A DNA stretch of 64,000 nucleotides from a beta proteobacterium AAP51 (GTDB lineage: Bacteria; Pseudomonadota; Gammaproteobacteria; Burkholderiales; Burkholderiaceae_C): NCBI GenBank assembly GCA_001295905.1, contig LJHT01000014.1, forward strand, positions 124,001 to 188,000. Reading direction: 5' to 3'. Numbering within the stretch: position 1 is the stretch's first letter; each line of letters begins with the position of its first letter. Made by a program: the position numbers and the translations under genes. The notes below the pieces were generated by a model. The model searched no databases. It saw only the letters and a program-made list of their open reading frames with translations, and was not told the DNA's origin. This document shows positions 1,874-18,800 of this stretch, one piece after another.

Positions 1874-2977
1874 ATGCACCGCATTGGTAGCAACCCTGCC
1901 GTCAGCCCCACCTTCTGGCGCGGCAAAAAAGTGCTGCTCACCGGCCACACCGGCTTCAAGGGCAGCTGGCTCAGCCTGTGGCTGCAGCAGCTGGGCGCCG
2001 AAGTGCATGGCCTGGCCTTGGACCCGCCCACGCAGCCCAGCCTGTTCGAGGTGGCGCGCGTCGGCCAGCGCATGACGGAAACGCGCGGCGACATCCGCGA
2101 CTTCGACACCGTGCAGGCCTGCATGGCGGGCTTTGCGCCGCACATCGTCATCCACATGGCGGCGCAGTCGCTGGTGCGCCCTTCGTACAGCGACCCCGTG
2201 GCCACCTACGCCACCAACGTGATGGGCACCGTGCACGTGCTGGAGGCGGCGCGCCGCTGCGGTAGCGTGCGCGCGCTGGTGAACGTGACCACCGACAAGT
2301 GCTACGAAAACCGGGAGTGGGTCTGGGGCTACCGCGAAGAAGAAGCCATGGGCGGACACGACCCCTACAGCAGCAGCAAGGGCTGCGCCGAACTGGCCAC
2401 CGCCGCCTACCGGCGTTCCTTCTTCGGTGCGGCAGGCAACGGCCTGGCGGTGGCCAGCGCGCGCGCCGGCAACGTCATCGGCGGTGGCGACTGGGCCGCC
2501 GACCGCCTGGTGCCCGACACCCTGCGCGCCTTCGAGCGCGGCGAAGCCGTGGTGCTGCGCAACCCCCACGCCACGCGGCCCTGGCAGCACGTGCTGGAGC
2601 CTTTGTCGGGCTACCTGCTGCTGGCGCAGCGCCTGTTCGAAGATGGCCAGGCTTATGCCGAAGGCTGGAACTTCGGCCCGCGCGACGAAGACGCGCAGCC
2701 CGTGCAAACCATCGTGCAGCGCCTGGCCGCCGATTGGGGCGCAGGCGCGCGCTGGCAGGTGGATGCCGGCGAGCACCCGCACGAAGCGCACTGGCTCAAG
2801 CTCGACATCAGCAAGGCGCGCGCCCGCCTGGGCTGGCAGCCGCGCTGGACGCTGGCGCAGGCGCTGGGCCACATCACCACCTGGCACCGCGCCTGGCGTG
2901 CCGGCCAAGACATGCAGGCCCTGTGCCTGCAACAGATTCAACACCACGAACAGGCCCTGAGCCCGCAACCCGCATGA
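1874..2977 (+). CDS. rfbG: CDP-glucose 4,6-dehydratase
   Basis: This 367-residue extended short-chain dehydrogenase converts CDP-glucose to CDP-4-keto-6-deoxyglucose using tightly bound NAD+. The Rossmann fingerprint GHTGFKGS sits at residues 24-31. The GHTGFKG form, instead of the GGAGFIG of dTDP-dehydratases, is characteristic of the CDP enzymes. A Tyr-X3-Lys catalytic pair occurs in [11 protein letters not shown], and the [13 protein letters not shown] segment supplies the conserved catalytic Thr-Asp-Lys. Its stop codon overlaps the start of rfbH (ATGA), indicating translational coupling. Confidence 0.95.
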
Positions 2978-4368
2978 GCACCGCCACCCTGAACGCCGCG
3001 CCCAAGGCCACCCCCATGACTGCTGCCACCGTTGCCCCGCTGACCTTCATGCCCAAGTCGCCCGAAGCCGTGCGGCGCGAGATTGCCGCGCTGGTGCAGC
3101 AGTACGCCGACATCGTGCACGCGCCGCAGCCCTTCGTGCCGGGGCAGACGCCGGTGCCGGTGTCGGGCAAGGTCATCGGCGCGAAGGAGCTGCAGCTGAT
3201 GGTGGAAGCCTCGCTCGACGGCTGGCTGACCACGGGCCGCTTCAACGCCGAGTTCGAGGCTCGCCTGGCGCGCTACCTGGGCGTGAAGCACCTCATCACC
3301 GTGAACTCGGGCTCTTCGGCCAACCTGGTGGCGTTCTCTGCGCTCACCTCGCCACGCCTGGGCGAGCGCGCCATCCAGCGCGGTGACGAGGTCATCGGCG
3401 TGGCGGCGGGCTTTCCCACCACCGTGAACCCCATCCTGCAGTTCGGCGCCGTGCCGGTGTTCGTGGACGTGGACCTGGCCACGCACAACATCGACGCCAG
3501 CCTGATCGAGGCCGCCATCACGCCGCGCACCAAGGCCATCATGCTGGCGCACAGCCTGGGCAACCCCTTCAACCTGGAGGTGGTCACTGCGCTGTGCAAG
3601 AAATACAAGCTCTGGCTGGTGGAAGACTGCTGCGACGCCCTGGGTGCCACCTACAAGGGCCAGATGGTGGGCACCTTCGGCGACATCGCCACGCTGAGCT
3701 TCTACCCCGCGCACCACATCACCATGGGCGAGGGCGGCGCGGTGTTCACGAACAACGCCGAGCTGAAGCTCATTGCCGAGTCTTTCCGCGACTGGGGGCG
3801 CGACTGCTATTGCCCGCCCGGCAAGGACAACACCTGCAACAAGCGCTTCTGCTGGAAGCTGGGTGACCTGCCCGAAGGCTACGACCACAAGTACACCTAC
3901 AGCCACCTCGGCTACAACCTGAAGATCACCGACATGCAGGCCGCCTGCGCGCTGGCGCAGTTGGACCGGCTGGACGACTTCATCGCCGCGCGCCGCGCCA
4001 ACTTCGCCTACCTGCACGAACGGCTGCAGTCCTGTGCCGAGTTCCTGCACCTGCCGCAGGCCACGCCCGATTCAGAGCCTTCGTGGTTCGGCTTCCCCGT
4101 GGTGCTGAAGGAAGGGGCCGGCGTGAAGCGCACCGACCTGCTGAACTACCTGGACCAAAACAAAATCGCCACGCGCCTGCTGTTCGCCGGCAACCTGACG
4201 CGCCAGCCTTACATGTTGGGCCAGAACTACCGTGTCAGCGGCAACCTCAAGCACACCGACACGGTGATGAACCAGACCTTCTGGCTGGGCGTCTTCCCGG
4301 GCCTGGAAAAAGACCACCTGGACTACGTCGTCACCAAGCTCGAAGAGTTCTTCGGCGTGAACTTCTGA
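2974..4368 (+). CDS. rfbH: CDP-4-keto-6-deoxyglucose 3-dehydratase (E1), PMP and [2Fe-2S] dependent
   Basis: E1 of 3,6-dideoxyhexose synthesis removes the C3 hydroxyl together with the E3 reductase encoded at the start of the operon. It has the aminotransferase class V/DegT fold, but the usual PLP-lysine is replaced by His in [14 protein letters not shown], the hallmark of this PMP enzyme. The iron-sulfur ligands follow the exact CX57CXCX7C spacing of the family (Cys220, Cys278, Cys280, Cys288). I chose the ATG that overlaps the rfbG stop (464 residues). The reading frame stays open far upstream, but that part overlaps rfbG and is a shadow. A second ATG at 3019 is possible but would leave a gap. 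Confidence 0.95.
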
Positions 4369-6858: not shown

Positions 6859-9800
6859 TCAGATCAGCGGCACCTGGTGGCGCAGCAGCTCGTCGTCGAC
6901 CATGCCGCGGCTCATGCTGCCGGCGCCCACCGCGGTGGCCTGGGCTGCGGCCGGGCTGCCGCCCGTGCTGCCACCGCCCAGCAGGTCGGTGCCCGGGCCG
7001 CTGAGCAGTTCGCCCACGGTCGGCGGCGTGTCGGCCTGTTTGGCGAACCACACGTCCACCATCGCGGCCTGGGTGCCGTCGGTCTTGGTGTAGCCGCCCT
7101 GCAGGCCCATCAGGTTGCCGTTGTTGAGGTCGGTGCTCTTGGTGAAGTCGAGGTTCAGCTCGGCCACGCCCATGTCCAGCAGGCCCTTCAGTTCGCCGGC
7201 GTCCGTCACGCCGTCGCTGTTGGCGTCCACCCACAGCTTCAGCTCGCCCCAGGCATCGTCAGCCGCGTTGAGCTTGCCGTCGCCGTTGCTGTCCAGCGCG
7301 GCCATGGCGCGGAAGCCGTCACCGGCGCGCTGACCGTTGGCCAGCTGCGTGGCGCCGCCGAAGAGCTCGCGCCCGTCGTCGATGCTGCCGTTGCCGTTGA
7401 GGTCGCGCACCAGCAGGCCGTCCTGTGCGCTGGCCCAGCCCACCTTCGCCGTCTGGCCGGTGGCCGTGAGGTCGAAGTTCACGCCGTTGGCTGCCGACAG
7501 CGTCTGCACGCCGTCACCGTTCAGGTCCAGCACGATGGGCGTGACGGCCTGCAGCGCGGCGAACTGCGCCGTGGTCATGGCCGCCCAGTCTTCACCCTCG
7601 AAGGCGTTGTACTGGGCCATGGTCATGGCGCCCAGGTCTTCGGTCTCGAAGGCGAACACCTGGGTGGTGCTCAGGGCCTCGATCTGCTCGGTGGTCAGGG
7701 CGCGTGCCTGGGCCGTGGTCAGCGCCACGATGTCTTCCGTGGCCAGGCCGGCGATCTGCTCCGTGGTCAGCGACACGATCTGCGCCGTGGTCAGCGCCGC
7801 GAACTGCGCCGTGGTGAAGGCCGCAATCTCCGCCGTGCTCAGCAGGCCCAGGTGGTCGAGCGTCAGCGCCGCCACCTGTGCGGTGGTGAGCTGGCCCAGC
7901 TGCACCGTGGTCAGCGCGTCCACCTGCGCCGTGGTCAGTGCGGCGATCTGCGCCGTGGTGAAGGCCTGCAGGTCAGCCACCTCCATGGCCACCAGGTCGG
8001 TGGTTTCGATGGCCTGCACCTGCGTGGTGGTCAGGGCCGCCACCTGGGCGGTGGTGAGGCCCTGCACCTGGGCGTTCGTCAGCGCGGCAATGTTGTCGGT
8101 GCCGAGCGCACGCACCTGGGCGGTGGTGAGCGCAGCCACGTCGGCCACGGCCAGCGAAGACACCTGGGCGGTGCTCAGGCTGGCGATCTGCGCCGTGGTC
8201 AGCGCCACGATCTGCGCGCTGCCGAAGTTCGACAGTTCGCTGCCGCTCAGGGCCTGCAGCTGCGCCGTGGTCAGCGCGGCCACCTGGGCCGTGCCCAGCG
8301 CGGCCAGCTGGCCGGCCGTCAGCGCGTCGATCTGCGCCGTGCTCATGGCCGCGATCTGTGCCGTGCCCATGGCCGCCAGGTCGGCGGTCTGCAGCGAGCC
8401 CAGGTCGGCCACGTCGATGGCGCGCACCTGCGCCGTGGTCAGCGCCGCCACCTGCGCGGTGGTCAGCGCCTCCAGGCCGGCGCCGGTGAGGGCGTTCACC
8501 GCCGCCGTGCTCAGTGCGCGGATCTGGCCCGTGCTGAGGGCGGCGATGTCGGCCGTTTCCATGCCGTTGATCTGCGCCGTGTTGAAGGCACCCACCTGCG
8601 TGGCCGTCATGGCGGCGAACTGCTCGGTGGTGAAGGAAGCCAGCGCCGAGGGCGACATGCCGTTGATCTGGCCGATGTTCAGCGCCGAGACCTGGCGCGT
8701 CGTCATGCCGGCCAGCTGGGCCGCGCTCATCGCGCTGAGCTGGTCACCGGTGAAGGCGCCCACCTGGCCCACCGACATCGCGGCGAGGTCGGCCGACTGC
8801 AGCGACTGGATGTTCGCCGTGTTCAGCGCACGCACCTGCTGCGTGGTGAGGGCCACGACCTGCTCGCTGTCCAGCGCCGCCAGGCCGGCACCCGACAGCG
8901 CGGCGATGGCCGCCGTGCTGAGGGCACGCACCTGGGCCGTGCTCAGCGCCGCCAGGTCGGCGGTTTCCAGGTTCGCCACCTGGGTGGTGCTCAGGCGGGC
9001 GATCTGCGCCGTGGTGAGCGCCTGGAACTGCGCCGAGCTCAGCGCGTTCAGTTCGGTCGAGCCGATGGCGCTGACCTGCGCCGTGCCGATGGCTGCCAGC
9101 TGCGCCGTGCCCAGGTTGCTGAGCTGCGTGGATGTGAGCGCGTCGACCTGCGCCGAGGTCAGGGCGCGGATCTGCGCCGTGGTCATGGCCGCGAGGTCGG
9201 CGGTTTCCATCACCGCGATGTCACCCGACTCGATGGCCGCCACCTGGTTGGTGCGCAGGGCCGCCACCTGCTCGGTGAGCAGCGCCTGCAGCTGGCCACC
9301 GCTCAGCGCGATGACCTCGTCGGTGCCCAGCGCGCGGATCTGGTCGGTGGTGAGCGCCGCCAGGTCGGTGGTGGTGAGGTTGGCCACCTGCGCCGTGGTG
9401 AAGGCCGCCACCTGGGCGGTGGTGAAGGCACGGAACTGGTCGCTCGACAGCGCGTTGAGCTTGGCCGTTTCCAGCGCCGCCACCTGCGCGGTGGTGAGGT
9501 AGCTCAGCTGCGTGTCCGTCAGGTTCGTGAGCTGCGTGCTGGTGAGCGCGGCCACCTGGGTGGTGGTCAGCCCGGCCAGCTGGCTCTGGCTGAGTTCGGC
9601 CAGGTCGGCGGTTTCCATCAGCGCCAGGTTGGTGGTGCTGATGGCGCGCAGCTGGGCCGTGGTCAGGCCCGCGATCTGCTCGGTCACCAGGGCCTGCAGC
9701 TGGCCGGCGCTGAGCGCCGCGATCGCAGCGGTGCTGAGGGCGCGCAGCTGCAGGTCGCTCAGCGAAGCGAGGTCTTCGGTTTCCATGGCTGCCACCTGGG

Positions 9801-12800
9801 CCGAGGTCAGCGCCACCAGCTGGGCCGGCGTGAGCGCGTCGAACTCGGCCGTGCCCAGGGCGCGCAGGCGCGTCGGGTCGATGGCCGCCAGCTGCGCCGT
9901 GCCCATGTTGCTGAGCAGGGTGTCGCTCAGGTTGGCCAACTGCGTGGTGGTGAGGGCCGCCACCTGCGTGGTGGACAGCGCGGCGAACTGCGCCGGGGCC
10001 AGCGCGTTCAGGTCGTCGGTGGCCATGGCCACCAGCGTGGCCGTGGGAATGGCCTTCAGCTGGTTGGCTGTGAGGGCCGGGACCTGCAGCGTGCCCAGGG
10101 CTTCGAACTGCGTCTGCGTCAGTGCGGCGATGGCGGCGGTGGACAGGGCCACCACCTGGGCCGTGGTGAGGCCGCCGAGGTCGTCGGTCTGCAGGCCGGC
10201 CACCTGGGCCGCGGTGAGGCTGGCCACCTGGGTGGCCGAGAGGCCCACCACCTGGGCCGAGGTGAGGGCGGCGATGTCGGCCGAGTCCAGCGCACGCAGC
10301 TGGGACGTGCTGAGGAAGCCCAGGCGCGTGCCGTCCAGGTTCGAGAGCTGCACCGTGCTCAGTGCCGCGATTTGGGCCGAGCTCAGGGCGCCGATCTGCG
10401 CACTGTTCATCAGGTTCAGGTCGTCGGTGCCGAGCGCCTCCACCTGCTGCGCCGAGAGGGCGCGCAGCTGGGCCGTGTTCAGGCCGGCGATCTGTTCCGT
10501 GGCCAGGCCGGTGATGACGGCGTTGCTGAAGGCAGCGAAGGCGGCGGTGCCGATGGCACCGATCTGCACGCTGCTGAGCAGTGCCACGTCGGCGCTGTCC
10601 AGCGCGGCGGCCTGGCTGGCCGTCATGGCCGGCAGCTGGGCCGTGGTCAGGGCCTGCAGCTGGGCGCTGCCCAGCGAGGCCAGGTCACCGGCTTCGATGG
10701 CGGCGAACTGGCGCGTGCTCAGGCTGGTGAGCTGCGCCGTGTCCAGCGCGCCGATGCCGGCGGTGGTCAGGGCCGCGATGGAAGCCGTGCCCAGCGCCGC
10801 CAGTTGCGCGGTGGTGAAGGCACGCACGTCGGCGGTTTCGAGGTTGGCGATCTGGTCGTCGGTGAGGCGGGCCACCTGGGCTTCGCTCAGCGCGCGGATC
10901 TGCGCCGAGTCCAGCGCCGCCAGCACGGTGGGCTGCAGGGCCTGCAGCTGGCTGGTGGTGAGCAGCGGCACCATGGCCGTCGTCAGGCCGGCCACGGCGG
11001 CCGTGGTCAGCGCGCCGATGGCTTCGGTGCTGAGGGCGGCGATGGTGGTGGTGCCGAAGGCGCCGAGGTCGGCCGAGGACAGCAGGGCCGCCTGGGCTTC
11101 GGTGATGGCGCGCACCTGGGCCGAGGTCAGCGAGGCCAGCTGCAGCGTGCTCATCGAGGCCAGGTCGTCGGCCTCCAGCAGCTGGATCTGCGCCGTCGTC
11201 AGGCCCGGCAGCTGCACCGAGGTCAGCGCGCCCAGGCCGGCGGTGGTGAAGGCGGCCAGCTGCTCGGCGCTGAGCGCACGCAGCTGCAGCGTGCCGAGGG
11301 CGGCGATGTCCTCGGTTTGCAGGCCTTCGATCTGGCTGGCCGTGAGGGCCGCGATCTGGCCGGTGGTCAGGGCGCGGATCTGGCCCGTACCCAGTGCGTT
11401 CAGGTTGGCGTTGCTCAGTTCGGCGATCTGCGTCGTGGTCAGCGCCGCCGCCTGCGCGGTGGTGAGGGCGGCGAACTGCCCCGTCGTCAGTGCACCCAGC
11501 TGCTCGGCCGTCAGGGCGGCCACCTGCTGTGTGCTCAGTTCGACCAGGCGCGCGGTCGGGATGGAAGACAGTGCCGAGGCGTCGAGCGCGGCGAGTTGTG
11601 CCGTCGTGAGGTTGGGCAGCTGGTCCGAGGTCATGGCCTGCAGCGCCGCAGCCGAGAAGGCCGACATGTTGTCGGAAGCGATGGCGCGCAGCTGCGTGCT
11701 GGTGAGGGCCACCACGTCAGCGGTTTCCAGCGCGGCGATCTGGTCGACGTTCAGGCCGGCGATCTGCGCCGTGGTCAGCGCACGGAACTGGGCCGTGGTC
11801 ATGCCGGTGAAGTCGGCCATGTCCATCGCGGCCAGCTGCTCGTTGCTGAGCGCGGCCACCTGGTGCGTGCCCAGGCCAGCCACCTGCGTGGCGTCCAGCG
11901 CCGCCACTTGCTGCTCGGTGAGTGCGCGCACCTGCACGGTGGTCAGGGCCTGGAGGTCGGCGGCCTGCAGGTTGGCCACCTGCGCTTCAGTCAGGTTGGC
12001 GATCTGCGTCGTGCTCAGGCGGCTGAACTGCGCGCTGGTCAGGGCGTTCAGGGTCTCGGGCGCCAGGGCCGAGAGCAGGCTCACGTCCAGCGCGGCCACC
12101 TGGGCCGAGGTGAGGGCGGCCATCTGCGCCGTGGTCAGCGCAGTGAGGCCTTCCGCGCCCAGCGCGTTGATCTGCGCCGTGCCCAGCCGCACCAGGTCTT
12201 CGGTCTGCAGCGCCGCCAGGTTGCCGGTGACGAGGGCCGCCACCTGGTTGTTGCTGAGGGCCGCGGCCTGCGTGGTGGTGAGGGCCGCCACCGCGGCGGT
12301 GGACAGGGCGCCCACGGTTTCGGGCGTGAGCGCAGCCACCTGGGCCACGCTGAGCACGGCCACGTCGGCGGCTTCCAGGGCCGCGGCCTGCGCCGTGGTC
12401 AGCGCCGCCAGTTGCGCGGTGGTGAGCTTCTCGAACTGATGGGTGCCCAGGCTGGCCAGCTGGCTGGCCTCCAGGCCTGCAATCTGCTCGGTGGTGAGGG
12501 CCACCACCTGGCGTGTGGCCAGGCTGCCCAGCTGCGCGGTGCTGAGCTGGTTCAGCTGGTCCACGCGGAAGGCGGCGATCTGGCCCACGCCCATGGCCGC
12601 GAGGTCGGCCGTCTGCAGCGCCGTCAGCACGTTGGCGCCCAGGCCGACGATCTGCTCGGTGCTGAGGGCGGCCACCTGCTCGGTGGTGAGGGCCTGCACG
12701 GCGGCGCTGCCCAGGCCCGAGAGGGCGTCGGTGCTCAGCGCGCGGATCTGTGCCGTCTTCAGCGCGGCAATCACTTCGGTGGCCAGGGCGCCGGCCTGCT

Positions 12801-15800
12801 CGGCCGTCATCGCGGCGATCTGCGTCGTGCTGAGCGAGGCGAACTGCATCGAGCCCAGCGCGGCCTGGTCGGCGGCATCCAGCGCGGCGAACTGCGCGGT
12901 GGTGAGTGCTGCCACCTGGCGCGTGGTGAGCTGGCCCACCTGGGCGCTGCTCAGCGCCTCGATCTGCGCCGTGCTCAGCGCCTGGATCTGGTCGGTGCTG
13001 AAGGCGCGCAGGTCGTCGCTGGCCAGCTGGGCCATCTGCTCGGCCGTGAGGGCCTGCACCTGGGCGGCGCTGAGGCCCACCACCTGCGCGGTGGTCAGCG
13101 ACGGGATGATGGACGCGTTCAGGGCTGCCACGCTTTCCGTCGTCAGCGCGCGCAGCTGGGCGGTGCCCAGCACCGCCAGGTCGGCGGCCTGCAGGGCGCC
13201 GGCCTGTTGCAGCGTCAGCGCAGCGAGCTGGGCCGTGGTCATGGCGGCGAACTGCGCCGTGGTCATGGCGGCCAGGTTGCCGGCTTCAATGGCGGCGAAC
13301 TGCGCCGTGGTCAGCGAGGCCACCTGGCGCGTGGCCAGGGCCTGCAGCTGGGCCGAGTCCAGCGCCGCGATCTGCGCCGTGGACAGCACGGCCACCAGCG
13401 GCGAGGCGATGGCCGCGAGGTCGGCGGTCTGCAGCGCCGCCACCTGCTCCAGCGTCAGCGCTTCGAGCTGGGCCTGCGTCAGCGCACCGGCCTGCAGCGT
13501 GCTCATGCCGGTGATGGCACCGACCGACAGTGCCGCGATGGCCTGCGGCGTGAGGGCGCGCAGCTGTGCCACCGTGAGGGCGGCGATGTCGGCGCCTTCC
13601 AGCGAGGCGGCCTGCTCGGAAGTGAGGGCGGCCAGCTGCGCCGTGCTCATGGCGCGGTACTGCGCCGTGCCCATGGCGGCCAGGTCGGCAGCTTCCAGGG
13701 CCGCGAACTGTGCGGTGGTGAGCGCGGCGATCTGGCGCGTGCTCAGTGCGGCGGCCTGCGCCGTGTCCAGCGCCTGCAGCTGTTCCGTGGTGAGGGCGAT
13801 GACCTGGGCGGTGTTCAGCGCCACGAGGTCGGCGGTCTGCAGCGCCGCCACCTGGTCGGCCGTGAGCGCGGCCACCTGGGCCGTGGTCAGCGCACCGGCC
13901 TGGGCCGTGGTCAGGGCCACGATGCCGGCGGTGGTCAGCGCGGCCAGCGTGGTGGGCGCCAGGGCGCGGATCTGCGCCGTGCTGAGCGCGGCGAGGTCCA
14001 GCGTTTCCAGCGCCGGGGCCTGGGTCGCGGTGATGGCGCCCAGCTGGGCGGTGGTGAGGGCGCGGAACTGGTCGCTGCTCAGGCCTGCCAGGTTCTCGGG
14101 CGTGAGCGAGGCGATGTGCGCCGTGCTCCAGCCCGGCACCTGCAGCGTGCCCAGCTGGGCCAGCTGCGCCGAGGTGAAGGCCTCGAACTGCGCGGAAGAC
14201 AGCGCCGCCAGCTGCGTGCTGCTGAGCTTGGCCACGTCTTCGGTCTGCATGCCGGCGATCTGGTCCACCGTCATCGCGGCCATCTGGGCCGTCGTGATGG
14301 CCGAGATCTGACCGGTGCCCAGGGCCTGGATGGCGGCCACCGAGAGCTGGCCGAATTGGGCAGCACCCAGCGCCTTCAGTTGCGCCGTGCTGAGCGCGGC
14401 GATGTCGGCGGCCTGCAGTTCCACCGCCTGCGCGGTGGTGATGGCGGCGATCTGGCCCGTGCTCAGCGCCTGGAACTGCACGCTGGTCAGCGCGGCCAGG
14501 TCGTCGGGTGCCAGGCTGGCGATCTGCAGCGTGCGCAGCGCCGCGATCTGGGCCGTGGTCAGCTTGTTCAGCTGGTCGGCTTCCAGCGCGTCGAGCTGCG
14601 CCGTGCTCAGCGCGCTGATGGCGGCGGTGCTGAGTGCGGCCACGTTGGCCGAGCCCATGCCGGGCAGGTCGGCGGCGTCGATGGCGGCCACTTGCGCGGC
14701 GCTCAGCGCGGCGGCCTGCGCGGTGGACAGGCCGGCCAGCTGGGCGGCGTCCAGCGCGGCCAGGCTGGCGGTGCTCAGCGCCGAGATCTTGGCGGTGCCC
14801 AGCTCGACCAGGTCGGCCACTTCCAGGGCCGCGGCCTGGGCGGTGGTGAAGGCGGCCACCTGCGTGGTGGTCATGGCGGCGAATTGCGCCGTGGTCATGG
14901 CGGCCAGGCTGCCGGGTTCGATGACGGCGATCTGCTCGGAACCGAGCGCCGCCACCTGGGCGGTGCTCAGGCCGGCGAGCTGGCTGCCGTCCAGCGCTTC
15001 GATCTGCGCCGCCGACAGGCCGCGCAGCTGCGCCGTGCCCAGGGCACGCAGGTTGGCGGTGCTCATGCCGGCCAGGTCGGCCGTCTGCAGCGCGGCCACC
15101 TGGGCGTTGCTCAGGGCGGCGGCCTGGGCCGTGGTCAGGCCCGACAGCGCATCGGCCGTCAGGGCGGTGATGTTGCCCGGCGTCAGCGCAGCGATCTGCG
15201 CCGTCGACATGGCGGCGATGTCATCGGCCTCCAGCACCGCCACCTGGGCGTTGCTGAGCGAGGCCACCTGGGTGCTGGTGAGCTGGCCGATCTGCGCCGT
15301 GCCCAGCGCGTTGATGTCGGCGGTGCCCAGCAGCGCCAGCTGCGCCGTGCTCAGCGCGCGGATCTGGCCCGAGGTGAGGGCGGCCAGCTGGTCGGCCACC
15401 AGGGCCTGCACCTGCGCGTCGGTCAGTGCCGCGACCTGGGCCGTGCCCAGCACGGCGATGTCGGCGGTGTCCATTTCCGCCAGGCGGGCCGGGGCGATGG
15501 CGCGCACCTGGGCCGTGCTCAACGCGGCGGCCTGTTCGGTGCCCATGGCCTGCAAGGTTTCGGGGCGCAGGGCTTCGATCTGGGCCGTGCTCAGCGCGCG
15601 GATCTGGGCCGGGCTCAGCGCCGCGAAGTCGGCCGCTTCCAGCTGGCTCATCTGCAGCGTGGTGATGGCGGCCACCTGCGCCGTGCTCATGGCGCTGAAC
15701 TGGCCCGAGCTCAGGGCGTTGAGCTGGTCGGTGGTCATGCCGGCGATCTGGGCCGTGCTCAGCCCCGTCACCTGGCCCGTGCTCAAGGCCCCCAGCTGGT

Positions 15801-18800
15801 CGGGCGTCAGCGCCGCCAGCTGCAGGCTGGTGAGGGCCAGCACCTGGGCGCCGTTCAGCGCCGCCAGCGTGGCCGTGCCCAGCGAGGCCAGGTCTTCGGG
15901 GTCGATGGCGCGCAGCTGCGCCGTGCTCAGGCTGCTGGCCTGGGCCGAGGTGAAGGCGCCCACCTGGCCGGCGTCGAGCGCGGCGATGTTGGCGGTGCTC
16001 AGTGCAGCGATGCGGTCGGGCGCGAGCGCGGCGATGTCGGCGGCTTCCAGCGCCGCGGCCTGGGCCGTGGTGAAGGCGGCCACCTGGGCCGTGGTGAAGC
16101 CGGTGAACTGTGCGCTGCTCAGCGCGGCCAGGTCGCCCGCATCCAGGCTGGCCACCTGGGCGGCGGTGAGCTGCGCGATCTGCGCCGTGCTCAGGCCGGC
16201 CAGCTGGTCGGGGGCCAGCGCGTCGAGCTGCGCGGTGGACAGCGTGCGCAGCTGCGTGCTGTCGAGCTGGGCGATCTGTGCGCTGGTCAGGGCGGCGAGG
16301 TCTTGGGGTTCGAGGGCGCGCAGCTGCGCCGTGCTCAGCGCGGCCATCTGGGCGGTGCCGAGGTCCTTGCCCAGCGCGGCCACCTGCGTGGCGTCCATCG
16401 CGGCCAGCGCGGCGGTGCCGATGGCGCGCACCTGGGCCGAACTCAGCACGGCCAGGTCGGCGGTCTGCAGCGCGGCGGCCTGTTCGTCGCTGAACGAGGC
16501 GATCTGCGCCGTGCGCAGCGAGGTGTAGGCGGCCGTGCCGAGCGCGGCCAGTTCGTCAGGGGCGATGGCGCGCAGCTGGGCCGTGCTCAGCGCGGCCAGC
16601 TGGCCCGAGGCGCCCGTGGTCAGCGCCCCCAGCTGGGCAGCGCCCAGGCCTTCCACCTGCGAGGTGGTGAGCGCGGCGATCTGCGCCGTGGTGAGGTTGG
16701 CGATCTGCGCCGTGCTCAGCGCGGCGAGGTCGGCGTCTTCGATGGCGCGCACCTGGCCGGTGGTCAGGGCGGCCAGCTGGGCGGTGCTCATCGAGGCCAG
16801 CGCATCGGCGCTGAGGGCCGCCAGCGCGGCCGAGCTCATGCCCTTGATGGCCACGGTGTTGATGGCGGCCAGGTCTTCCGTGGCCAGCGCGGCCACCTGG
16901 GCCGTGCTCAGCCGGCCCACCTGGCTGGAGTTGAGGGCGCCGAACTGTTCGGTGGTGAAGGCGCCCAGGCGCTCGGGCGTCAGGCTGGCGATCTGGGCGC
17001 TGTTCAGGCTGGCCACCTGGGCCGTGGTCAGCGCGGCCAGGTCGCTGGTGTCCAGCGCCGCCAGCTGGGTGGTGCTGAGGGCGTTGATCTGCGTCGTGTT
17101 GAAGGCCCGCAGCTGCGTGCTGCTGAGCACGGCCAGGTCTTCGGTTTCCAGCGCGCGCACCTGGGCGCTGCTCATGTTGGCCAACTGCGCGGTGCTGAGC
17201 GCTGACACCTGGGCGGTGGTCAGTGCGGCGATGGCGGCCGGGCTCAGCGCGCCGATCTGCGTGGGGCCGAGCGAACCCAGGTCGATGGGCTGGGTGGCGC
17301 TGCCTTCGAACAGCGCGCCAAGCTGCGCGCTCGTCAGCGCGGCCAGCTGCGTGCCGCTGAACGAGGCCGCCTGGGCGCTGCTCAGCGCGTCGAGCATGGC
17401 GGTGCTGAGGCCGCGCATCTGCGTGATGGTGAGTGCGGCGAGGTCGGCGGTTTCGAAGGCGGCGAAGCCCTCGGTGCCGATGACGGCCAGCTGCGCCGCC
17501 GTCAGGCCCTGAATCTGCGCGGTGGTCAGCGAATTGACCTGCGCCGTGCTCAGGCCGTCGAGGGCGGCGGTGCTGATGGCAGCCACCTGGCGCGAGGTCA
17601 GCGCCGAGAGGTCGGGCACCAGCTGCGCGGACGTCAGGCTGGCGATCTGCGTCGGCGTGAGCGCGGCGAACTGGTCGCTTTCCAGCAGGCTGACACCGGT
17701 GCCCAGCGCGGCCAGCTGGGCGTTCGTGAAGCCGGCCACCTGGGCCGTGCCCAGCGAGGCGAAGTCTTCCGTCAGCGCGGCCACCTGGGCGGTGGTCAGC
17801 GAGGCGATCTGGCTGCCCGCCAGCGCAGCGAGGTCGCCGTTCAGCGCGGTGATGTTGCTGCCCAGGGCCTGCAGCTGGGCAGGGCTGAGGCCGGCCACCT
17901 GGGCCGAGGTGAGGGCGGCCACCTCGGCGGTGTCCATCGAGCCCGGCGCGAAGATGGCCGTGGCCAGCGCGCGCACCTGGGCCACGCTGAGCTGGCTGTA
18001 GTCGGCGGTGCCGAGCGTGGCGAACTGCGCCGTGGTCACGCCGGCCATCGGGCCGGCGCTGAGGGTGAGGATGTCGTCCGAGGTCAGCGCGCTGCCCAGG
18101 GCGGTGATGCTGGCGCTCGTCAGGCCGTTGATCTGGGTCGAGGTGAGGGTGGCGAAGTCAGCCGTCAGGCCGGCCACCTGGGCCGAGCTCAGGCTCCCCA
18201 GCTGGGTGGGGGCCAGCGCGGCGAGCTGCGCCGTGGTCAGCGCGTCCAGGTCGGCGGCGCTCAGGCCGTCGAGCTGGTTGGCCGTGAGGGCCCGCACCTG
18301 GGCCGTGCTCAGGGCCACCAGCTGCGCGGTGCTCAGGGCGCCCATCTGGTCGCTGGTGAGCGAGGTGATGCGGGTGGCGCCCAGCGCGGCCAGGTCTTCG
18401 GTGGCCAGGCCGGCCACCGCGGCTGTGTTGATGGCGGCCAGCTGGGCCGGCGTCATCGCGTTCACCTGCTCGGTGCTGAGGGCGGCGATGTCGGTGCTGT
18501 CCAGCGCCGCGATGGCGCCGGTGCTCAGCACGCGCAGCTGCGCGGTGGACATGGCCACGAGGTCGGCGGTGGTCAGCGAAGCGCCATAGGCGCTGCCCAG
18601 CGAGGCCACCTGCGCGGTGGTCAGCGCGGCCAGCTGCGCGTCGGTGATGGTGTCCAGGCGCGCCAGCTGCGCGGTGGTCATGGCGGCCACCTGGGCCGGC
18701 GTGAGGGATTCGATCTGCGTCGAGGTCAGCGCATCCACCGCCGCAGTGCTGAGGGCGCGCACCTGGGTGGTGTTCAGCGCGGCCAGGTCGGCCGTCTCCA

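Follow-up and report, generated by a model that had tools for sequence, protein, structure and literature searches.

The repeat described here belongs to a family that already has a name. Pfam PF20080 (ALTTAQ_rpt) covers the same repeat, but its model spans 38 positions (~5 octads) and carries no 17-octad order. The one like chain by sequence in the Protein Data Bank (PDB) is 9ZEM, HeliScrew4 (E 1e-14 and 9.1e-17), apparently a designed protein, judged by its name; this 120-residue chain has LTPEQIAA-type octads as in the array analysed below, but 15 of them only. Our searches of open-licence papers turned up none on ALTTAQ repeats, HeliScrew or octad-solenoid block lengths. Among exported proteins, giant type I-secreted repeat adhesins of the MpAFP and BapA type are strings of beta-sandwich domains. 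Here we analyse a 64,000-nucleotide stretch of contig LJHT01000014.1 (positions 124,001 to 188,000) from beta proteobacterium AAP51, hereafter called the window, which encodes a 4315-residue protein built largely of octads. It has in common with the MpAFP/BapA-type adhesins its size, its repetitive body and an LssB-type transporter in carrier genomes, but its body is a predicted continuous helical solenoid.

We think it fairly probable that this protein is a giant, exported and glycosylated solenoid of ~500 helices with ~3.4 octads per turn, in which 17 octads make five turns, block lengths keep to whole turns, and the chain finishes in an FrpC-type end. Neither the repeat family nor the fold type is new; what merits testing is the whole-turn rule.

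The 17-octad repeat of the window protein

The protein is encoded by a minus-strand open reading frame (ORF), which parses into ~503 octads (504 by the parser, the final one lying inside the following domain) with the consensus L-[ST]-T-A-Q-[LIV]-A-A. PF20080 matches this array in 135 stretches with 2436.3 bits, against a curated cut-off of 26.4. A reading made from the letters of the window (the sequence-only reading) had proposed that the octads are ordered into a repeat of 17, that is of 136 residues or 408 bp, and this order is present in both protein and DNA. Amino-acid identity is 0.395 at lag 136, compared with 0.323 at lag 128 and 0.309 at lag 144, and is the highest among lags 1-699; DNA identity at lag 408 is 0.559, the highest among lags 1-2099. 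Counted in octads, lag 17 reaches 0.445, compared with a maximum of 0.394 in 1000 shuffles of octad order over lags 2-60 (z 13.8). The parts of the protein are as follows, in window coordinates.

6859..19806, minus strand: giant ORF, 4315 residues, with an ATG start; its N-terminus (MATLIPNFTTAQIA...) has no signal-peptide-like stretch, judged by eye
7555..19785, minus strand: octad array, residues 8-4084, ~503 octads (octad parse and PF20080)
16792..19806, minus strand: N-terminal third, residues 1-1005, octads without the 17-octad pattern (parse and lag analysis)
11467..16791, minus strand: higher-order repeat region N, residues 1006-2780, ~13 blocks (lag-17 ranks and block count)
10843..11466, minus strand: transition, residues 2781-2988, with an 11-octad slip in the register of the pattern (lag ranks)
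7555..10842, minus strand: higher-order repeat region C, residues 2989-4084, ~8 blocks, with two Asp-5 series (parse and lags)
8395..9210, minus strand: two blocks, residues 3533-3804, 34 predicted short helices (AlphaFold2)
7042..7539, minus strand: domain like the FrpC self-processing module, residues 4090-4255 (match to 6sjw_A)
6862..7041, minus strand: C-terminal tail, residues 4256-4315, predicted disordered, ending DDELLRHQVPLI (alignment and AlphaFold2)

Asp stands at position 5 in 77 of the 504 octads. In region C the two interleaved series that had been read from the sequence, at 7729...10585 and 7969...10825, hold at 8/8 places each (16/16), their Asp codons beginning at 7732...10588 and 7972...10828. 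The same alternation had been claimed for 12361-16033, where it holds at 9/10 and 6/9 places (15/19) and breaks at the others; in the three misses of the second series, an Asp-5 octad sits one octad off. The number of acidic columns exceeds two, with Asp-5 spacings of 10/7, 6/4/7, 11/6 or 10/6/1. Regions N and C carry the same acidic pattern at a register offset of 11 octads (r 0.95 at that shift), even though no gap interrupts the octads between residues 1149 and 4084.

The order does not extend over the whole array. Lag 17 ranks 1 to 3 among lags 5-30 in segments of region N (residues 1006-2780) and falls to rank 10-11 over residues 2781 to ~3052. Since no lag-17 excess is seen in residues 1 to ~1000 or in ~2781-3052, the blocks that carry the pattern number ~21 (~13 + 8), and the earlier estimate of about 30 copies was too high. 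In the N-terminal third (window 16792-19806) inserts of 2-7 residues separate the octads, and no block pattern is seen. From residue 1149 onward, amino-acid identity at lag 17 stands at 0.464; where residues are identical, their codons agree 1.062 times as often as expected at lag 17 and 1.056 times at lag 34 (mean over lags 0.999, standard deviation 0.028). Together, this level of identity and a codon identity just 1.06 times expectation indicate that the 17-octad blocks are old, and recent duplication as the source of lag 17 was rejected on the same codon figure.

Growth by duplication of 17-octad blocks, which the sequence-only reading had also proposed, is supported by the dominance of lag 17 and by the net length differences of relatives. 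Across the repeat region, six full-length relatives (48-69% identity over the alignment) differ from the window protein by 0 (L052, L057), 136 (L053, L055, L056) or 544 residues (L054). Among the 70 alignment jumps of at least 48 residues, 10 measure 136 and 5 measure 272 residues (15/70), the rest being fragments or lying in the N-terminal third; an aligner within such a repeat favours in-register placements. Two other arrays, L128 and L058, have young 27-octad blocks (lag-27 identity 0.95 and 0.77), and the 17-octad blocks of the window are old by contrast.

Block lengths and the inferred turn of the predicted solenoid

Within the gapless part of the window protein, the strongest spectral peak falls at 5/17 per octad for Asp-5, Gln-5, acid/Gln-2, Arg-7, Leu-6 and TAQ; for A7, A4, L1, F6, I6, P3, A5 and D4/E4 the strongest peak lies elsewhere. 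Relative to Asp-5, the phases in the two regions are ~0 degrees for acid-2, 117-137 for Arg/Lys-7 and 147-157 for TAQ. The suggestion that acidic octads stand at fixed angles of a solenoid therefore finds support in the statistics of the sequence, namely a period of 17/5 = 3.4 octads and constant relative phases in both regions, and in the solenoid-like string of helices predicted by AlphaFold2.

The input to this prediction was an alignment of residues 3533-3804 with nine further stretches of the window protein, and the model has 34 short helices for 34 octads, with a mean predicted local distance difference test (pLDDT) of 94.4 and a predicted template-modelling (TM) score of 0.83. Such confidence needs care in repeats: one study describes confident yet unrealistic beta-solenoid models of repeat proteins (PMC11795689). 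The composition of the octads fits a capped mini-helix, with hydrophobic residues at positions 1 and 6 in 491 of the 503 octads, a cap-type residue at position 2 in 411/503 and Gln, Glu, Asp or Asn at position 5 in 425/503. We take this pattern to be what the terms capping box and hydrophobic staple describe.

The mechanism that we propose begins with a body of ~500 very short helices, one per octad, wound into a solenoid. Leu-1 and the aliphatic residue 6 would form the core, and residues 2 (mostly Ser/Thr) and 5 (Gln/Asp/Glu) would cap each short helix. One turn would take ~3.4 octads (27.2 residues) and 17 octads five whole turns; a duplicated 17-octad block would put each octad back on the same face, and the acidic stripe (Asp-5 with Glu/Asp/Gln-2), the Arg-7 stripe and the TAQ face would continue unbroken across blocks. 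Blocks far from whole turns (e.g., 8, 9, 12, 15 or 22 octads) would rotate these faces and be lost. Retention of whole turns only would therefore leave block lengths of 7, 10, 14, 17, 24, 27, 34, 41 or 44 octads.

The lengths found in relatives bear on this expectation. Candidates for a first set were 88 arrays (our own, the first ORF of L052-L071, and 67 of 80 loci from named genomes that were found via the C-terminal module); the 55 whose gapless runs of at least 20 octads add up to 60 octads or more were kept (our own, 14 from unnamed and 40 from named genomes) and 33 dropped. The top lag is 17 octads in 30 arrays, 27 in seven, 10 in five, 34 in four, 7 in three, 24 and 41 in two each, and 14 and 44 in one each. 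In all 55 it departs by no more than 0.13 turn from a multiple of 3.396 octads, as do 13 of the 43 possible lags, the period and the threshold having been chosen on these same arrays after the data were seen. The spectral band of 3.0-3.85 octads exceeds the largest of 20 shuffles in 46 of the 55 arrays (median period 3.396), and the mean autocorrelation follows a cosine of period 3.395 octads (bootstrap 3.390-3.403) with r 0.84 when lags 17 and 34 are left out.

A second set drew 20 ORFs from 20 candidate loci, of which 19 contributed; nothing came from L199, and one ORF at L203 was left out as too short. Nineteen of these 20 ORFs belong to other classes of the phylum. Top lags here are 24 (seven ORFs), 10 (three), 34 (three), 17 (two), 4 (two), 31, 14 and 21. 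Seventeen of the 20 fall in the whole-turn set, for which the binomial value of 6e-7 presumes independent arrays, and the arrays are related. Once an even/odd effect is removed, the cosine period is 3.425 octads (3.417-3.435). In one family of another class (L191-L196, L200-L208) lags alternate between even and odd as if the unit were two octads (16 residues).

From these lengths we infer that blocks come in whole turns of a solenoid with ~3.4 octads per turn, their length being quantised accordingly. Some of the same counts weigh against that conclusion. In 9/55 arrays of the first set the band stays below the shuffle maximum, and the overall strongest period lies in 3.3-3.5 octads in only 30/55; in the second set three top lags of 20 are off (4, 4 and 21) and the even/odd effect is strong; and, since the arrays are related, none of these counts is independent.

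Descent could also set the lengths, with modules of 7 and 10 octads being joined and duplicated by unequal crossing-over under no structural rule. Every top lag of the first set is indeed a sum of 7 and 10, the slightly raised codon identity at lags 17 and 34 shows common descent still visible, and some relatives (L058, L128) have young blocks that are nearly identical. Yet 20, 21, 28, 30 and 14 are such sums as well, and their mean Z is near zero (0.15, -0.15, -0.02, 0.00 and 0.02), compared with 2.66 for lag 17; lags 27 and 24 have 1.24 and 0.87. The other classes, moreover, use 24, 10, 34 and 14, and descent leaves the covariation described next unexplained. We regard descent by itself as unlikely, though a rival to be taken seriously.

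Covariation between octads was computed on residuals from column means; subtracting the octads 17 away instead makes lags 3 and 7 look negatively correlated when they are not. For residue volume, the root-mean-square (rms) Z at lags 1-8 is 2.94, 2.48, 4.14, 2.95, 2.04, 2.10, 2.13 and 2.01, and for hydropathy 2.69, 2.17, 2.99, 2.97, 1.95, 2.27, 2.21 and 2.14. In each of six comparisons (three sets by two properties) the largest value among lags 2-9 belongs to lag 3 or lag 4, and in three of them to lag 4. Octads three or four apart are the expected next-turn neighbours at 3.4 octads per turn. Block descent does not predict this covariation, since it was computed without column means and is lower between the same columns taken one block on.

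The best Foldseek match of the predicted fold is mesothelin (8cx3, 7ued; E 4.6e-5, TM score 0.44 by query and 0.47 by target), likewise a solenoid of short helices. Mesothelin differs, however, in being an animal protein of 14% identity with helices of varied length, and the likeness is one of fold only, at an rms deviation of 6.5 A. It is described as a right-handed solenoid with 24 short helices in nine layers (PMC10035497). HeliScrew4 (9ZEM) was absent among the best 50 Foldseek matches. Proteins of uncultured tailed phages also match the predicted fold (BFVD A0A6J5QPU1 and A0A6J5Q6G8; E 1.1e-6 and 1.6e-6, TM score by query 0.21 and 0.24).

Several results speak against a turn of 3.4 octads. 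Helix length in the AlphaFold2 model has no significant 3.4 period. A backbone scan yields compact models from 2.2 to 3.8 octads per turn, and right-handed models of pitch 8-12 A give a 5-95% range of 2.27-3.04 (median 2.67), which excludes 3.4; the range of left-handed models, 2.27-3.84, includes it. The mesothelin counts correspond to ~2.7 helices per layer, and covariation at lag 3 is predicted at 2.7 octads per turn as well. In the named set, volume covariation at lag 4 is barely above lag 2 (2.70 vs 2.69), and the third set is weaker, with hydropathy at lag 2 (2.84) above lag 3 (2.57).

The right-handed scan, the layers of mesothelin and the lag-3 covariation, which suits both turn sizes, would all agree with a turn of ~2.7-2.9 octads, the 3.4 signal then being a surface pattern (a harmonic, or contacts with neighbouring molecules). 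At 2.83 octads per turn (17/6), however, the favoured lags 7, 10 and 27 would lie near half turns, and lag 4 is the covariation maximum in three of the six comparisons. We hold this smaller turn to be quite improbable, and keep to ~3.4 octads as the inferred value.

C-terminal module, export and glycosylation genes

Directly behind the array, residues 4090-4255 are homologous to the 177-residue self-processing module of FrpC (6sjw_A, E 6.2e-42; also 6sjx), whose calcium sites and cleaved Asp-Pro bond are described in PMC7078468. Four EF-hand-like calcium loops align with those of FrpC (alignment only). The cleaved Asp-Pro of FrpC is not present: the window protein and 13/13 aligned rows have Thr-Pro at that position. 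The motif could be read at 67 of the 80 named loci, and there the residue at the FrpC Asp position is Thr in 53, Ser in 14 and Asp in 0, a tally in which one of the two search patterns demanded Thr-Pro. The module here is probably of the calcium-binding FrpC type and devoid of cleavage activity. AlphaFold2 models the C-terminal part as 18 octad helices, a beta-rich domain and a disordered tail (pLDDT 81.5), and in most relatives of the genus the tail ends in residues akin to DDELLRHQVPLI.

The sequence-only reading had suggested calcium or partner sites in the acidic octads. In one version of the calcium idea these octads bind the metal as the repeats of repeats-in-toxin (RTX) proteins do, with the 17-octad spacing setting the metal sites, and an array with 284 acidic and 89 basic residues ahead of an FrpC-like module would suit it. 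The RTX nonapeptides are missing, though, from the giant protein (0 matches to GGxGxD and 0 to GGxG), and such repeats are lacking in two helical proteins, the sequence relative HeliScrew4 and mesothelin. Members of the acidic series lie 7 or 10 octads apart, which equals two or three inferred turns, and so they form no next-neighbour ladder. We dropped the ladder as a leading idea on these two grounds, spacing and motif, and consider calcium sites in the octads very improbable; calcium binding is expected in the C-terminal module instead.

Genes for export occur together with the array protein. Within the genus, PF20080 is found in 13 of 25 genomes, and a gene for an LssB-type ATP-binding cassette (ABC) transporter scores above the TIGR03375 cut-off in 13 of 25. 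This transporter is present in 11/11 genomes with a canonical array protein and in 2/14 others (Fisher 2e-5, with kinship ignored and the canonical class set after the proteins had been seen); when every one of the 13 PF20080 carriers is counted, the table reads 11, 2, 2, 10 (Fisher 0.0012). In the genome of AAP51 itself, contig C102 (L077:8345-13793) holds a cluster of genes for an HlyD adaptor, an LssB-type ABC transporter and a glycosyltransferase of family GT41 with tetratricopeptide repeats (TPR-GT41). GT41 and ABC genes occur together in all four other genomes of the genus that were examined, accompanied by HlyD in three; in the fourth the contig ends there. This cluster suggests glycosylation ahead of type I export.

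Linkage is also seen at the 80 named loci, where gene content was counted in the DNA covered at each locus: ABC genes are present at 24, HlyD at 18, both at 17, GT41 at 20, any of the three at 36, and none at 44. Same-strand GT41 matches start no more than 1.3 kb downstream in 13 loci, and ABC matches no more than 1.6 kb in 11; many of the ABC matches are only 25-31% identical. At L087, genes for OEP, HlyD, ABC and TPR-GT41 proteins all adjoin the array gene. The linkage to type I secretion and GT41 genes suggests an exported, perhaps glycosylated, surface protein. A cytoplasmic TPR-GT41 enzyme would modify Ser/Thr residues, probably followed by type I secretion, and the exported protein would act as a long surface or matrix protein. 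Sites for such an enzyme would be plentiful, because 438 of the 503 octads have Ser or Thr at position 2 or 3. Judged by its size, its repetitive body and the linked export genes, the protein may be an adhesin or a matrix component.

A comparable arrangement is HMW1/HMW1C (PMC3983070), in which a large exported repeat protein is linked to a cytoplasmic enzyme of the GT41 family. HMW1 uses two-partner secretion and N-glycosylation with an enzyme lacking the TPR fold, whereas here the linked genes are of type I and TPR-GT41 kind.

Against export stands first that the secretion genes of the own genome lie on a different contig (C102) from the giant gene. The linkage at the 80 loci is given as raw counts with no baseline for chance adjacency, and the whole case for glycosylation and adhesion comes from gene linkage and composition. 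The array might instead be a cytoplasmic filament or scaffold, its link to secretion genes being incidental; the missing N-terminal signal, the separate contig and the 44 of 80 loci with none of the three genes fit this. Linkage of ABC, HlyD or GT41 at the other 36 and the co-occurrence within the genus argue for export, as does the FrpC-type module, which according to PMC7078468 has so far been described in exported RTX proteins. A cytoplasmic scaffold therefore seems to us rather improbable, and an exported protein remains the reading that we prefer.

Other genes of the window lie beside the giant gene. Between 56 and 5844 on the plus strand, genes for a Fer2/FAD reductase, a nucleotidyl transferase, a GDP-mannose-dehydratase-like protein, a dTDP-sugar isomerase and an epimerase adjoin it; they make up a nucleotide-sugar pathway, perhaps one for CDP-dideoxyhexose. 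In a comparison of flanking ORFs at 10 loci of the genus, a shared neighbour was found in L052 alone, so conserved neighbours are unusable inside the genus. Antisense to the array runs an open frame of 3442 residues (window 6877-17205, plus strand), most likely a by-product of the codon use of the minus-strand gene and of its repeats.

Distribution and meaning

With the own genome counted, PF20080 carriers amount to 13/25 genomes of the genus, 6/369 of the class and 28/398 of the phylum. None was found in 16 genomes of other families of the order, and among 14 control genomes Caulobacter vibrioides is the only carrier. Judged by the C-terminal module, the named relatives that come closest are a metagenome-assembled Leptothrix (67%) and Rubrivivax (66%).

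More generally, we see about even chances that block growth is quantised in short-helix solenoids as a class. The lengths 7, 10, 14, 17, 24, 27, 31, 34, 41 and 44 would then be near-integer multiples of ~3.40 octads per turn, constant across the classes of the phylum, and the pitch would be readable to ~1%. Seventeen octads, at five turns, would give the best closure and align glycan-bearing Ser/Thr and acidic stripes over hundreds of nanometres.

If this is true, selection on the shape of a protein would set the length of duplicated DNA blocks. A helical parameter would be obtainable from repeat spacing alone and could be checked against the deposited structure 9ZEM, and the overall shape of the solenoid may be readable from sequence alone. 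For the giant proteins of environmental Proteobacteria, a large family of which almost nothing has been described, it would also supply a likely export route and a glycosylating partner.

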